Shown one piece after another: positions 8,933-13,947 of a stretch of DNA of 64,000 bases. Under the pieces are notes generated by a model. That model made no database searches and was not told the DNA's origin. It was given only the letters and a program-made list of their open reading frames with translations. Source of the stretch: Thioalkalivibrio sp. ALE31 (GTDB lineage Bacteria; Pseudomonadota; Gammaproteobacteria; Ectothiorhodospirales; Ectothiorhodospiraceae); NCBI RefSeq assembly GCF_000377405.1, contig NZ_KB905023.1, positions 124,001 to 188,000 on the forward strand, in the 5' to 3' direction. How positions within the stretch are numbered: position 1 is the stretch's first letter; every line of letters begins with the position of its first letter. Made by a program: the position numbers and the translations under genes.

Positions 8933-9841
8933 CTATCCACCGGCCGGCGAACTGACCGTGGTCAGTACCGCGGTCAGCAGCAGGATCGACCCGACCAGAC
9001 CGCCCTCCAGCGCGATACTGCGGCGCAGCCGCCCGGGGGCCCCGGGTTCGCCGCGCTCGAACGCCGGCACCAGCCGCCACTTGTTCGCGGCGGCCAGCAG
9101 CAGGAGCAATCCGACGATCAGGACCTTGCCGATCAGGAACTGCCCATAGCCCGTGGTGAGCAATGGCGTGACACCGCCCAGCAGCAAGGCCGCCAGCACC
9201 ACACCGGCCAGCACCAGCAGCCCGACCCCGAACGCCGCCACCTGGCCGAAGCGCGCCAGGATGCGCGCGGCATCACAACCCGCCGGCGGGTGCCCCGCCA
9301 GGCGATACAGCGGCCACAACGAACCGACCCAGAAGGCCGCAGTCAGCAGATGCAGCACCAGCAGCCCTCCCAGCAGGACGCGCGGCTCGTCCACCGTGTG
9401 CCCGACCTGCACGAAGGCGAGCATCACCAGCAATACGCCGGCAAGGCTGAGACCGTAGCCCAGCCCCGGCAACCGACGGGCATCCAGCAGGATCGCCTGC
9501 ACCAGCAACAAACCGCTCACAGCCAGCACCAGCCGGGTTCCCTGCGCCCCCTCGAACACCACGCCGAGCAGCATGGGGTCGAAGGCAGCCGCACCATTGC
9601 CACCCCCGAGGTATCCGGCCTGCAGCGGCCACTGGACCAGGGCCAGTACGATCGCGACCCAGGCCGCGATCGCACCCATGCGGCTGGCCGCCCGGCGATC
9701 CGGATCAGGCAGATCCGGAAACGCCAGGCGAAACAGCACCGCCCCGGCCGCCAGCAGGGCACCGGCATAGAACCCGGCCACCACCAGCATCATGGCGACC
9801 GTCCAGGCATCCACACCGGCAAGCGCAGACAGCCAGGCCAC
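8933..9841 (-). CDS. copD: CopD-family copper resistance membrane protein
   Basis: A 302-residue polytopic inner-membrane protein of the CopD family, proposed to move copper across the cytoplasmic membrane together with periplasmic CopC. About eight hydrophobic helices are apparent. Typical segments include the N-terminal AGFYAGALLAAGAVLFRLAFP, the VQVGHTVDEPRVLLGGLLVLHLL stretch with histidines inside a helix, and a C-terminal TTGYGQFLIGKVLIVGLLLLLAAANKWRLVPAF, which is the CopD signature. It is the last gene of the leftward copper operon, three bases after copC. It converges on the DegS-type gene with a 26-base gap. Confidence 0.85.
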   Translation of the reverse strand: MAWLSALAGVDAWTVAMMLVVAGFYAGALLAAGAVLFRLAFPDLPDPDRRAASRMGAIAAWVAIVLALVQWPLQAGYLGGGNGAAAFDPMLLGVVFEGAQGTRLVLAVSGLLLVQAILLDARRLPGLGYGLSLAGVLLVMLAFVQVGHTVDEPRVLLGGLLVLHLLTAAFWVGSLWPLYRLAGHPPAGCDAARILARFGQVAAFGVGLLVLAGVVLAALLLGGVTPLLTTGYGQFLIGKVLIVGLLLLLAAANKWRLVPAFERGEPGAPGRLRRSIALEGGLVGSILLLTAVLTTVSSPAGG

Positions 9842-9844
9842 GGC

Positions 9845-10213
9845 TCAGTCCTCCACCGTGAAGCGGAAGCTCCCGGACATCATGTGGCCGTCACGGGCCA
9901 GACCACGCCAGCGCACCTCGTAGCGCCCCGGTTCCAGATCACCGGCCGGACGCACATGGTACTCCTCGGTCGGATCACTGCCCGGCTCGTTCTCCAGGGA
10001 CACGCGGCCCTGCGGGCCGATCACGTCGAACTGGGTGATGCGCATCGCGCCATCGAAGTGAATCCCGATCTCCTCCGGGGTGCCCTGCACCGTGGAGCCA
10101 TCCTCCGGGACCTGTCCCATTTCGCCCTCGTGGGCCAGCAGGGGGCTGGCGAAGGCCAGCAGCAGGGCCGCAAGGGCGGAACGCAGGATATTGCGGTTAC
10201 CAATCGTCATCAT
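9845..10213 (-). CDS. copC: CopC-type periplasmic copper-binding protein
   Basis: A 122-residue CopC-domain protein. It starts at the first of two adjacent ATG codons, with GAGG upstream, and has a signal peptide ending LLA. Cleavage there would leave histidine as the first mature residue (HEGEM), as needed for the CopC copper(II) histidine brace. The C-terminal DGHMMSGSFRF supplies the second conserved Asp-x-His of the site. The beta-barrel core (GIHFDGAMRITQFDVIGPQG) is standard. A longer open frame upstream contains low-complexity sequence and is not needed. It lies immediately before copD, matching known copCD pairs. Confidence 0.88.
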   Translation of the reverse strand: MMTIGNRNILRSALAALLLAFASPLLAHEGEMGQVPEDGSTVQGTPEEIGIHFDGAMRITQFDVIGPQGRVSLENEPGSDPTEEYHVRPAGDLEPGRYEVRWRGLARDGHMMSGSFRFTVED

Positions 10214-10319
10214 GTCGTCCTCAAGTTGTTCAAGTGCAGTCGTGTCGTGTCGGAATCCGCCGGCCACAGGCCACCGGGGGCCGCCTTGCGGCGCTCCCGG
10301 TGCCCGCACCGGTGGAAAC

Positions 10320-11753
10320 TCAGTGGTTGTGGCCTCCGTGGCCGTTGTGTCCTCCATGCCCCCCGTGGCCGCCATGGCCTCCGTGCCCGCCATGCGCATC
10401 GCGGCTGGGGGTCGGGAGCCCGTCGGAATCCGCACCCGCGACCTTGCCGCGGCGCACCGGATTGCCGAAATCCGGATCGCGGCTCACGCGGCGGGCCACC
10501 TCCCCGTCCGGGTGCCAGTACCAGCCGGGATCGCGGAAGTCCCCGGGCTCCAGGTCGTCGCGCACCTTGATCAGGGTGAACATGCCGCCCATGCCGATGT
10601 TGCCGAACGGCCCCTGGCCCATCCCCATCGGCAGGGTGTTCTCCGGCCCGCGCATGTGGCCGCCGTCGGTATGGTCCTGGTGATCCGCCATGCCGTGTTC
10701 GCCCATGGCCATATAGCCGGGCAGCAGCGTACGGATCTCCTCCTCGAGGCCGGACTGGTCCACACCCAGGGTGTTGGCGATGCCGTGCCCCATCGGGTTC
10801 ATGGTGTGGTGGGACATGTGGCAATGGAATGCCCAGTCACCCGGTGGCGCGACGAACTCGATATCGCGGGTCTGGCCGACCGCGACGATCTCCGTGGTCT
10901 CCTTGCGCCACTGGTTGCGCGGCCAGCGCCCGCCATCGGAGCCGGTCACCTCGAACGACACCCCGTGCACGTGCATCGGGTGGTTCCACATCGACAGGTT
11001 GCCCATGCGGATGCGCACGCGCTCGCCCGTTTTCGCCACCAGCGAGTCGATGGCCGGGAACACCTTCGAATTCATCGACCACAGGTCGAAGTCCACCATG
11101 ATCGACGGGTCCGGCGTGCGCGTGCCCGGGTGCAGCCCCCAGTTGTGCAGCAGGATCGCGTAGTCGCGGTCCACCGGCTCGATCTCGCCATCCTTCGGGT
11201 GGATGATGAACATCCCCATCATCCCCATCGCCATCTGCACCATCTCGTCGGCGTGCGGGTGGTACATGTGCGTACCGTGCTGGTTCAGCTCGAACTCGTA
11301 GACGAAGGTCTCCCCCGGATGGATCGGCGGCTGGGTCACGCCCTTCACCCCGTCCATGCCCGAAGGCAGATGGATGCCGTGCCAGTGCACCGAGGTGTAT
11401 TCCGGCAGGCGGTTGGTCACGTAGATGCGAACCTTGTCGCCCTCCACCGCCTCGATGGTCGGCCCCGGGGTGGTGCCGTTGTAGCCCCAGCACTTGGCCA
11501 CCGAGCCGGGCGCGAACTCGTGCTCGATCTCCTCGGCGACCAGGTGGAACTCCTTCACGCCGTTGTTCATTTCGTACGGCAGGGTCCAGCCGTTCGGCGT
11601 ATGCACCGGCATGTAGCCCTGTTCGGTGCGTTCGCCGGGCGTGGCGTCGCCCTCGTTGTGGTGCTCGTGACCCGTTTCGGCCATTACCCGGGTCAGGGTA
11701 GTTGCCGGCAGCATTGCCGCGCCGGCGGCCAGCAGGAAGTTACGCCGTTTCAT
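10320..11753 (-). CDS. Multicopper oxidase with histidine-rich C-terminal tail
   Basis: A periplasmic three-cupredoxin-type multicopper oxidase, 477 residues, probably oxidising Cu(I) to the less toxic Cu(II). It begins with a twin-arginine signal (MKRRNFLLAA, cleavage near residue 25). All four copper motifs are present: HWHG (123-126), HMYHPH (162-167), HPMHVHG (268-274) and HCHMSHHTMNPM (310-321), with C311 and M321 as type-1 copper ligands. Metal-binding additions flank the core: a His/Glu cluster after the signal peptide and a terminal run of about seven GGH-type triplets. Its ATG shares one base with the stop of the TolC-like gene upstream. CotA/CopA-like naming is possible, but the substrate is not proven. 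Confidence 0.9.
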   Translation of the reverse strand: MKRRNFLLAAGAAMLPATTLTRVMAETGHEHHNEGDATPGERTEQGYMPVHTPNGWTLPYEMNNGVKEFHLVAEEIEHEFAPGSVAKCWGYNGTTPGPTIEAVEGDKVRIYVTNRLPEYTSVHWHGIHLPSGMDGVKGVTQPPIHPGETFVYEFELNQHGTHMYHPHADEMVQMAMGMMGMFIIHPKDGEIEPVDRDYAILLHNWGLHPGTRTPDPSIMVDFDLWSMNSKVFPAIDSLVAKTGERVRIRMGNLSMWNHPMHVHGVSFEVTGSDGGRWPRNQWRKETTEIVAVGQTRDIEFVAPPGDWAFHCHMSHHTMNPMGHGIANTLGVDQSGLEEEIRTLLPGYMAMGEHGMADHQDHTDGGHMRGPENTLPMGMGQGPFGNIGMGGMFTLIKVRDDLEPGDFRDPGWYWHPDGEVARRVSRDPDFGNPVRRGKVAGADSDGLPTPSRDAHGGHGGHGGHGGHGGHNGHGGHNH

Positions 11754-13342
11754 CAGTGATGCCCTCCGTGACCGTCGTCGCCGTGGTCACTGTGATCGCC
11801 ATGGTCATGATCTCCGTGATCCCCGTGATCCCCGTGATCCCCGTGATCCCCGTGATCCCCGTGATCCCCGTGATCCCCGTGATCCCCGTGATCCCCGTGG
11901 TCGCCGTGGTCGCCGTGGTCGCCGTGGTCGCCGTGGTCGCCGTGACCGCCATGGTCTCCGTGATCCATCGCGGACGGATCATGTTCGAGCGCGTCGGTTT
12001 CAAGATAGCCCTCGTCACCCGGCACCCCGCCTGGCAGCTCGCCGGCCACGGTGAAGGCCAGGTCGACCCGGGCCCGCCAGTACTCACCCAGTGCGGCCAC
12101 CGCGCGCTGCCAGTCGGCCAGCTCTTCCTGCTTGGTCACCAGCAGGTCGAAGACATCGTCGAACATGAAGTTCACGCGCTCCTGCACGCGCTCCAGCTCG
12201 ATCTCCCGGGCCGGCAGCAGTTCGTAGCGCTTGGTGCCGAACTTGTCGCGGTGATGGGCCAGGCGGACGAAGTGCTGGTGCACATCGGCGGTGACCGCCT
12301 GCTCCAGCCGGGCCCGGCGGGCCTCGCCGTCCTCCAGCCGCGCCTCGGCGCGGGCGATGCCGGCCTGGTTCTGGTTGAAGATCGGCAGGGTGAAGGAGAT
12401 ACCTCCGCCCCACAGGCGGGTGCCGTCCGTCTCGCGCTCGAACTCGATACCGGGCTCGATGTCGCCCAGCCAGCGATAGCGGCGCACCAGGGCCACGCCC
12501 TCGGTGAGCCCCTCCAGGGCATGATCCAGGGCCCGCAGGTCCAGACGCTGCTCCAGGGCCTGCGCGACCAGGGCATCGCGATCGTCCACACCGGCCAGCG
12601 GCAACGGCAGCTTGCCGGGGATCTCCCAGCCATCCACCTGGCCGGGAAGACCCATCAGGTGGGCCAGGCGCAGACGGGTTTCGCGCTCGCGCTGCCGCGC
12701 ATCCTCGAGCTTCAGCCGGGCCTCGGCCGCACGGATGCGCAGCTGTGCCCGCTTCAGGTCGGGGATATTGCCGGCGTCATAGAAGCGCTCGCCCAGCAGC
12801 GAGCCAAGATCCGCGGCACGGGTCTCCAGCGCCTGTACCTGAGCCCGCTGGCGCGCAGCCACTGCGTCATACCAGGCACGTTCGGTGTCCGAGGCCAGGG
12901 CTACCATGCCCTCGGCCAGCTGCAAGCGGGTGGACTCCCAGTGGGATTCGGCAATGTCCTGGCGGGCGCTGCGCATCAGCAGGCCAGAAATACCCCAGGC
13001 CAGGCCAACCCCGACTTCGTTGCCGCCACCGCCCTCGGGGCGCATCACCGACAGCGACAGGGTGGGATTGGAAAACTGGGCGGCCTCGACCACGTCGGCG
13101 GCCGTCAGATCCAGCTTGGCGTAGGCCTGCTGCATGCGCGGGTTGCGCCACAGGGCCTGATGAATGGCCTCCTCGAGCGTCAGCTCGCCGGAGGGGCGGG
13201 GCATCTCCGACTCGGGCAGGTCGATCCCCTGCACCGAGATGTCCTCCGCCAGTTCGGAGCGGTCCAGCTCGGGCGCAGTGACCGCGCAACCGGCGAGGAA
13301 CAGCACCGATACGACGGGGAGCAGCAATCGGGTTGCTCGCAT
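11753..13342 (-). CDS. TolC-family outer-membrane lipoprotein with long HGD-repeat tail
   Basis: An outer-membrane efflux-channel family protein (CusC/TolC type), 529 residues. The start is the ATG with AAGGAG nine bases upstream. A lipoprotein signal ends in LAGC (Cys19). The two OEP repeats span about residues 50-260 and 265-450, rich in long amphipathic helices (for example ARLKLEDARQRERETRLRLA). The last 60-70 residues are almost pure HGD/HGG triplets, encoded by a 9-bp tandem array, which is very unusual for this family. No RND pump or membrane-fusion partner is in the operon, so it may work with pump parts encoded elsewhere or as an outer-membrane metal sink. Translationally coupled to the oxidase downstream. 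Confidence 0.85.
   Translation of the reverse strand: MRATRLLLPVVSVLFLAGCAVTAPELDRSELAEDISVQGIDLPESEMPRPSGELTLEEAIHQALWRNPRMQQAYAKLDLTAADVVEAAQFSNPTLSLSVMRPEGGGGNEVGVGLAWGISGLLMRSARQDIAESHWESTRLQLAEGMVALASDTERAWYDAVAARQRAQVQALETRAADLGSLLGERFYDAGNIPDLKRAQLRIRAAEARLKLEDARQRERETRLRLAHLMGLPGQVDGWEIPGKLPLPLAGVDDRDALVAQALEQRLDLRALDHALEGLTEGVALVRRYRWLGDIEPGIEFERETDGTRLWGGGISFTLPIFNQNQAGIARAEARLEDGEARRARLEQAVTADVHQHFVRLAHHRDKFGTKRYELLPAREIELERVQERVNFMFDDVFDLLVTKQEELADWQRAVAALGEYWRARVDLAFTVAGELPGGVPGDEGYLETDALEHDPSAMDHGDHGGHGDHGDHGDHGDHGDHGDHGDHGDHGDHGDHGDHGDHGDHGDHGDHDHGDHSDHGDDGHGGHH
11809..11961. repeat. 9-bp tandem minisatellite inside the TolC-like gene
   Basis: Seen directly: nine perfect copies of GATCCCCGT (11818-11898) followed by five copies of GGTCGCCGT (11899-11943), flanked by degenerate copies such as GATCTCCGT and GACCGCCAT. 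On the coding (minus) strand both unit types read His-Gly-Asp (CACGGGGAT or CACGGCGAC), so gain or loss of units keeps the reading frame. Confidence 0.97.
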
Positions 13343-13473
13343 CGTGAAAATCTCCTTGATCGGACTTCGATTCCGCATCCCGCGCGAACGCGCGACACGG
13401 CCTTGCCGCCCGCCGGCACCGAGTGGAACCCGGACGTGCGGACAGCCCCGGCGCTCGGGCCGGTACAGTCAGA

Positions 13474-13947
13474 TCAGGAGAGGATCGGGGGTCGGTATAA
13501 CGCGGCCGCGGGCGGGCCGCTCTGGAAGGAATACAGGCGCATGGCCTGCGTGACCGGGGTCAGCAGATGCATGCCGGTGATGGACGGCATGCCCTGGCAG
13601 TGGCTGCAGGCCGAGCAACTCGCCAGACAGGCGCCATCTAGGCAATCCGCGTGCACGATCACCCCGCTGGCGTCAGAGGAATCGGATGCTTCATGGGCGT
13701 GGTCGCCGCCATGCCGAGTATCGGCGGGACCGTCCTGCGCATGGTGATCATGGTGGTCGCCGTGCGCGTGATCATGCGAATGATCATGGTCCGCGTGATC
13801 CGCCGCCTTGTCGCCCTGCGACTGGGCCCCGTGCATCGCATGCCCGGCGTGACTGCCTCCCTCGCTCGCAACCGCCGCAAGCGCCGGCAGGCCGGCAATC
13901 GCCAGCACCAGCATCCAGCACAGCAGTCGATGGAAGACCCGTTTCAC
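13474..13947 (-). CDS. Small exported His/Cys-rich protein, first gene of copper operon
   Basis: A 157-residue exported protein of unknown function. The GTG start at 13947 gives VKRVFHRLLCWMLVLAIAGLPALA, a clean signal peptide, with GAGG upstream. The mature part begins with a dense histidine/aspartate region (HDHSHDHAHGDHHDHH) and ends with a cysteine cluster (DCLDGACLASCSACSHC, about residues 105-121) and a hydrophobic tail. The Cys-x2-Cys end resembles DUF2946/CopL-type small proteins found beside copper genes, but I cannot assign it firmly. As the first gene of the operon it is a candidate metal sensor, scavenger or chaperone. Longer readings upstream cover repeat sequence and were not used. 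Confidence 0.65.
   Translation of the reverse strand: MKRVFHRLLCWMLVLAIAGLPALAAVASEGGSHAGHAMHGAQSQGDKAADHADHDHSHDHAHGDHHDHHAQDGPADTRHGGDHAHEASDSSDASGVIVHADCLDGACLASCSACSHCQGMPSITGMHLLTPVTQAMRLYSFQSGPPAAALYRPPILS

Follow-up and report, generated by a model that had tools for sequence, protein, structure and literature searches.

The CopABCD and PcoABCD systems of Pseudomonas and E. coli comprise a multicopper oxidase, CopC and CopD together with an outer-membrane part, CopB, and in P. syringae both CopA and CopB bear short His/Met repeats. Another arrangement is found on annotated beta-proteobacterial plasmids, of Burkholderia and Janthinobacterium, where operons encode in order a TolC family protein, a copper oxidase, a copper-binding protein, CopC and CopD. 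Outer-membrane channels that carry a lipoprotein signal are represented by CusC, SilC and OprM. Copper genes can also be preceded by a leader of the CutF/CopL kind, i.e., a small exported protein with a Cys motif and a Pro-rich C-terminus, as in R. capsulatus (CutF) and Xanthomonas (CopL); in R. capsulatus, copper-dependent stalling on CutF opens a stem that hides a Shine-Dalgarno (SD) sequence, and the most frequent neighbours of CutF-like genes are OEP genes (PMC9973294). Additionally, His-rich low-complexity regions are described in prokaryotic metal proteins (PMC6821194). In a literature search conducted largely outside the subscription journals, no paper turned up that describes an outer-membrane factor with a repeat-bearing tail.

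The 64,000 nucleotides of Thioalkalivibrio sp. ALE31 analysed here (the window) contain a gene cluster that resembles each of these systems in part. An OEP/TolC-family channel gene is followed in the same orientation by genes for a multicopper oxidase, CopC and CopD, and is preceded by a leader open reading frame (ORF). Its features are the following:

8933..9841, minus strand: CopD-family membrane protein (PF05425, E 1.9e-21)
9848..10219, minus strand: CopC-domain periplasmic protein, start not fixed (PF04234, E 2e-19)
10320..11753, minus strand: multicopper oxidase with a twin-arginine-type signal, MKRRNFLL (PF07732, PF07731)
10323..10394, minus strand: His/Gly tail of the oxidase (HGGHGGHGG...HNH), read from the sequence and differing between species
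11753..13342, minus strand: OEP/TolC-family outer-membrane factor lipoprotein gene, 529 aa plus stop, starting with the ATG at 13342 (ORF, PF02321, AlphaFold2)
11756..12001, minus strand: His-rich C-terminal tail of the channel protein, 82 aa, of which 25 are His and 26 Asp or Glu (sequence, model)
11753..11770, minus strand: terminal CAC GGA GGG CAT CAC TGA (HGGHH*) of the channel gene, read from the sequence
11807..11815, minus strand: GGAGATCAT, the final unit of a run of 15 Gly-Asp-His triplets, read from the sequence
11816..11896, minus strand: nine identical GGGGATCAC units, each encoding Gly-Asp-His, read from the sequence
11897..11941, minus strand: five identical GGCGACCAC units, each encoding Gly-Asp-His, read from the sequence
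13351..13366, minus strand: 3' arm AGUCCGAUCAAGGAGA of a predicted stem, holding the SD of the channel gene (pairing with the 5' arm)
13467..13481, minus strand: 5' arm UCUCCUGAUCUGACU of that stem, lying over the final codons of the leader ORF and its stop (pairing with the 3' arm)
13474..13947, minus strand: CutF/CopL-like leader ORF, GTG start inferred (weak NF033807 match, motifs)

Since the same gene order occurs on the Burkholderia and Janthinobacterium plasmids, with homologous proteins, and the neighbours are copper genes, the cluster is, as judged from its gene content, a known kind of copper operon, and its predicted metal is copper and not zinc. The initial annotation had left the choice between the two metals open; its copper half is borne out by the multicopper oxidase, CopC and CopD that follow the channel gene, and a zinc function is rejected on the same adjoining genes. 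Unlike the plasmid operons, the Thioalkalivibrio cluster has no separate copper-binding protein between the oxidase and CopC, and the plasmid channel proteins, which are ~29-30% identical to that of Thioalkalivibrio, lack a His-rich tail. The cluster shares a multicopper oxidase, CopC and CopD with CopABCD/PcoABCD; unlike in those systems, the outer-membrane part is of the OEP/TolC type instead of CopB (PF05275 was matched in none of 30 genomes of the genus, one genome per species and most of them draft assemblies), and the oxidase scores 172.8 bits against the TIGR01480 copper_res_A profile, below the cut-off of 479, with multicopper oxidase domains present. The channel resembles CusC, SilC and OprM in its fold and lipoprotein signal; unlike for these proteins, there is no pump gene in the cluster and the eight RND-like matches of this genome to the heavy-metal RND profile (TIGR00914) all fall below the cut-off and outside the cluster. 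A Cus-type pump was rejected on these grounds, and a generic RND transporter could still serve as a partner of the channel. Thus, the locus is a known copper module, here in a variant form with an arrayed tail.

The channel protein begins with an LAGC lipobox (Cys19; G18 and C19 are invariant across 17 sequences) and matches the OEP domain PF02321 with an E-value of 5.6e-40 (137.6 bits, cut-off 22). No homologue of solved structure was found by sequence. The AlphaFold2 model of the protein, of moderate confidence (mean pLDDT 67.6), matches the fold of OprM, CusC, SilC and TolC in Foldseek (E down to 1.7e-12). Residues 455-529, within the tail, are disordered in this model (pLDDT below 50). In the OEP/TolC-type family the C-terminus lies on the periplasmic side, and members of the family are trimers. 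Weak Pfam/NCBIfam matches to collagen-like proteins, below their cut-offs, were discarded as due to Gly periodicity only. These data agree with the initial annotation of a TolC-like lipoprotein and support its placement of the tail at the periplasm.

Within the sequence that encodes the tail, TRF reports a single array with a period of 9 and 17.7 copies (11808-11966). Read on the plus strand, its units are GATCCCCGT, nine times, and GGTCGCCGT, five times; on the coding strand all 14 read Gly-Asp-His (GDH), and GGAGATCAT adds one further unit to give an unbroken run of 15 triplets. The initial annotation had described nine plus five units encoding His-Gly-Asp, which is the same array read in another register, and its range of 11753-11968 correctly delimits the repeat-rich tail including the stop codon. 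A 27-bp pattern encoding GDH has 13 matches in the window, as against 0.00 expected from 100 shuffles, and a 36-bp GDH-type pattern is matched in 11 of the 30 genus genomes, the listed places forming one cluster per genome that, where compared, coincides with the channel gene locus. The nine GGGGATCAC units (11816-11896) also constitute a G-quadruplex-type motif on the coding strand, which is unconserved in relatives and could affect the stability of this allele. The tail contains 13 GATC sites, and a Dam-family methylase is encoded at G000:C3:126302-127087; of the 30 genomes, this one alone has such a match above the curated cut-off.

Across the genus, the channel gene lies beside the multicopper oxidase gene in 16 of the 30 genomes (78-100% identity), the named matches including Thioalkalivibrio ALJ21, ALJ3, ALJT, ARh2, ALJ24, HL17, AL 2, ALE14, AKL19 and ALMg11. 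Tandem Gly-Asp-His and/or Glu-Gly-His (EGH) arrays that differ in length or unit make-up are present in 14 of the 16. In the main clade, GDH runs reach maxima of 15 (the window), 10, 3, 9, 15, 19, 13, 23, 18 and 7 units; in the second clade, the longest runs span 1-9 units for GDH and 4-21 for EGH, and two metagenome-assembled genomes (MAGs) of the genus have short unarrayed tails with 10-11 His. Tail lengths range from 49 to 163 aa, every one in frame, as had been anticipated from a unit of three codons, and unit number differs between species; the identical number in all related strains that would have spoken against a variable tail was not what the comparison gave. In the nearest relative, G012, the core is 96.9% identical at the nucleotide level and the array is different: it consists of ten GDH units of GGAGATCA(C/T), and the GGGGATCAC and GGCGACCAC blocks are absent. 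Therefore, the interior of the array has been replaced while its flanks were kept alike. Identical units are grouped in blocks, which is the pattern that local duplication would give. Slippage would be the simplest mechanism for such changes and agrees with the unit maps; the same pattern would also arise by unequal recombination or gene conversion, either of which could have acted instead.

Changes at the DNA level appear to be filtered at the level of the peptide. The 177 GDH units make use of 11 of the 16 synonymous DNA forms available, and third codon positions hold 192 of the 268 differences between neighbouring in-register units, a count that takes in GDH/EGH boundaries and other unit types and is thus a rough guide. 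Moreover, the unit motif has switched from GDH to EGH with a His kept at every third residue. As the variation of the GDH unit is mostly synonymous, DNA expansion would therefore act under selection for the peptide. Beyond the genus, two relatives at 57-60% identity have HD/HE-rich, non-GDH tails, and tails that are rich in His/Met but composed differently occur upstream of an oxidase gene in several homologues at ~40% identity or less, e.g., MDHSEHSMEAP repeats in L065 and HDMSGHDMSGHDM in L076. Others lack a His-rich tail (L071, L072, L074 and the plasmid loci L077 and L078); thus, a putative metal-binding tail is common yet optional in this channel subfamily. Taken with the short tails of the MAGs, the tail-less homologues indicate that the module can do without the tail. 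Within the subfamily, the arrayed version belongs to Thioalkalivibrio, as far as the collected sequences go.

The tail is bounded by two fixed ends, the OEP core and the terminal HGGHH*. The latter is present in 15 of 15 genus relatives read (one with GGAGGA) and also in two relatives at ~60% identity. The Gly-Gly codons of HGGHH provide GGAGGG (11762-11767), which is the SD of the oxidase gene, 8 bases before its ATG, and this ATG overlaps the stop codon of the channel gene (TGATG). Therefore, the constancy of HGGHH is at least partly due to a ribosome-binding-site constraint and not to peptide function alone, a single codon pair serving the peptide and the ribosome-binding site alike. This fixed end separates the variable array from the coupled oxidase gene. 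The tail shares with the His-rich regions of prokaryotic metal proteins its His/Asp-rich composition and its place on a metal-handling protein, and differs from them in being an exact array of 9-bp units that varies between species and ends in a fixed SD-encoding motif (PMC6821194). The double use of the tail end, the His tail of the oxidase and the CutF/CopL-like leader at the start of the cluster had all escaped the initial annotation.

The leader ORF has a signal peptide, a His-rich middle, the sequence CLASCSACSHC and a C-terminal YRPPILS*. Its match to the CopL_fam profile NF033807 is weak and nearly full-length (E 0.0045, 17.6 bits, cut-off 40), and a profile search found no DUF2946 in it. 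With the Cys motifs CLASC/CSAC/CSHC, the Pro-rich RPPILS* end and a predicted SD-hiding stem all present, it likely belongs to the CutF/CopL-like kind already known. As in CutF/CopL (PMC9973294), it precedes copper genes and the predicted stem conceals the SD of the next gene; unlike in CutF/CopL, the leader would control the outer-membrane factor and not the oxidase directly, the 5' arm of the stem sits in the leader's own last codons, and the CopL_fam match is weak. Specifically, UCUCCUGAUCUGACU can pair with AGUCCGAUCAAGGAGA about 100 bases downstream, both arms together spanning about 130. The total fold energy of the leader-channel region is no better than that of shuffled sequences (z -0.46), so the case for the stem rests on the covarying arms. 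Pairs 1-9 hold in 16 of 16 genomes, and pairs 12-15 are altered on both sides between the two clades (G-C to C-G, A-U to G-C, C-G to U-A and U-A to A-U); in three genomes of the second clade, pair 14 or 15 is mismatched. These two-sided changes may represent one set of changes on one branch. An RPP-ending frame is also found upstream of distant homologues (L037-L039, L063, L064, L066-L068 and L076).

Collectively, these observations are consistent with a model in which the array encodes a disordered, periplasm-facing, putative copper-binding tail on an outer-membrane factor that would act together with the multicopper oxidase of the adjoining downstream gene, within a presumed copper-detoxification operon (leader, outer-membrane factor, oxidase, CopC, CopD). 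A His recurs at every third residue of the tail, usually with an acidic residue in the same triplet. Were the channel trimeric, like its family members, about 75 His would be brought together on its periplasmic side. There the tail could capture copper near the channel entrance and the oxidase, and that it acts as a local buffer or hand-over site is, in our assessment, moderately likely. The main competitor is that slippage expanded a few GDH codons and that selection does no more than tolerate the resulting low-complexity, disordered end, its length being functionless. This drift is possible, if unlikely: short-tailed and tail-less homologues exist, the array codons GGA, GGG, GAT and GAA deviate from the channel gene's own usage, as copied founder units would, and pairwise differences in array or tail length are not clearly related to core divergence (Mantel r 0.12, p 0.25), a result compatible with drift and tuning alike. 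Yet a His at every third residue survives many unit rewrites and the GDH-to-EGH switch, neighbouring units differ mostly at third positions, and other His/Met-rich tails are frequent upstream of an oxidase gene in distant homologues. A further proposal keeps the copper-binding tail and makes it mainly a copper donor or docking arm for maturation of the oxidase instead of a capacity buffer. In its favour, the channel and oxidase genes overlap and are neighbours even in distant homologues, and the oxidase too bears a His/Gly tail; the latter is shorter and of other composition, and we regard this role as rather improbable.

Alternatively, the repeat could act as DNA or RNA, be it through a G-quadruplex, a cluster of GATC (Dam) sites or a structure in the mRNA that controls the coupled oxidase gene. 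The array lies directly upstream of the oxidase start, the window's units fit a G-quadruplex motif (GGGG-N5 nine times on the mRNA strand) and the GATC-rich tail coincides with a Dam-family methylase in this genome. Nevertheless, such a role is very unlikely, given that many relatives have no GGGG unit or a single one, GATC sites number from 0 to 19, the other 29 genus genomes have no Dam match above the cut-off, and conservation lies in the peptide pattern and the GGAGGG end. The G-quadruplex and Dam-cluster readings were rejected for the lack of conservation of their motifs, and that of an mRNA structure because the array folds no better than shuffles (z 0.36). It is least credible of all that the unit numbers are assembly artefacts: most assemblies are drafts and one contig ends shortly past the array (L027, L007), but the arrays differ in synonymous unit types besides number, are in frame everywhere, and reach the longest GDH run, 23, in the 2-contig assembly G005.

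Expansion or contraction by multiples of 9 bp would alter the length of the tail and leave untouched the channel domain and the terminal HGGHH*. The latter has to be kept, since ribosome binding at the oxidase gene depends on it. Surface antigens and on/off switches are the usual subjects when tandem-repeat variation in bacteria is discussed; at this locus, repeat number would determine something graded, namely how many metal ligands a channel carries, between two fixed ends under different constraints. Adaptive tuning of the tail, as put forward in the initial annotation, is possible but a hypothesis. A more elaborate version is a contingency-like metal-buffer locus, in which 9-bp slippage in the first structural gene diversifies periplasmic copper-binding capacity between cells, translation of the oxidase is held constant by the fixed HGGHH*/SD end, and a leader peptide that senses copper governs how strongly the cluster as a whole is expressed; it is speculative and quite improbable. 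With its many sequenced species, Thioalkalivibrio would allow dose-response tests on natural alleles.

Repeats of other kinds were also observed at these loci. The oxidase gene adjoins the channel gene even in distant homologues, and the HGG-type tail of the oxidase is longer in L026 than in L024. In L065, the C-terminus of the channel homologue is a repeated tandem peptide, MKKQMDHSEHSMEAP, which reaches the contig end and is possibly an independent array.
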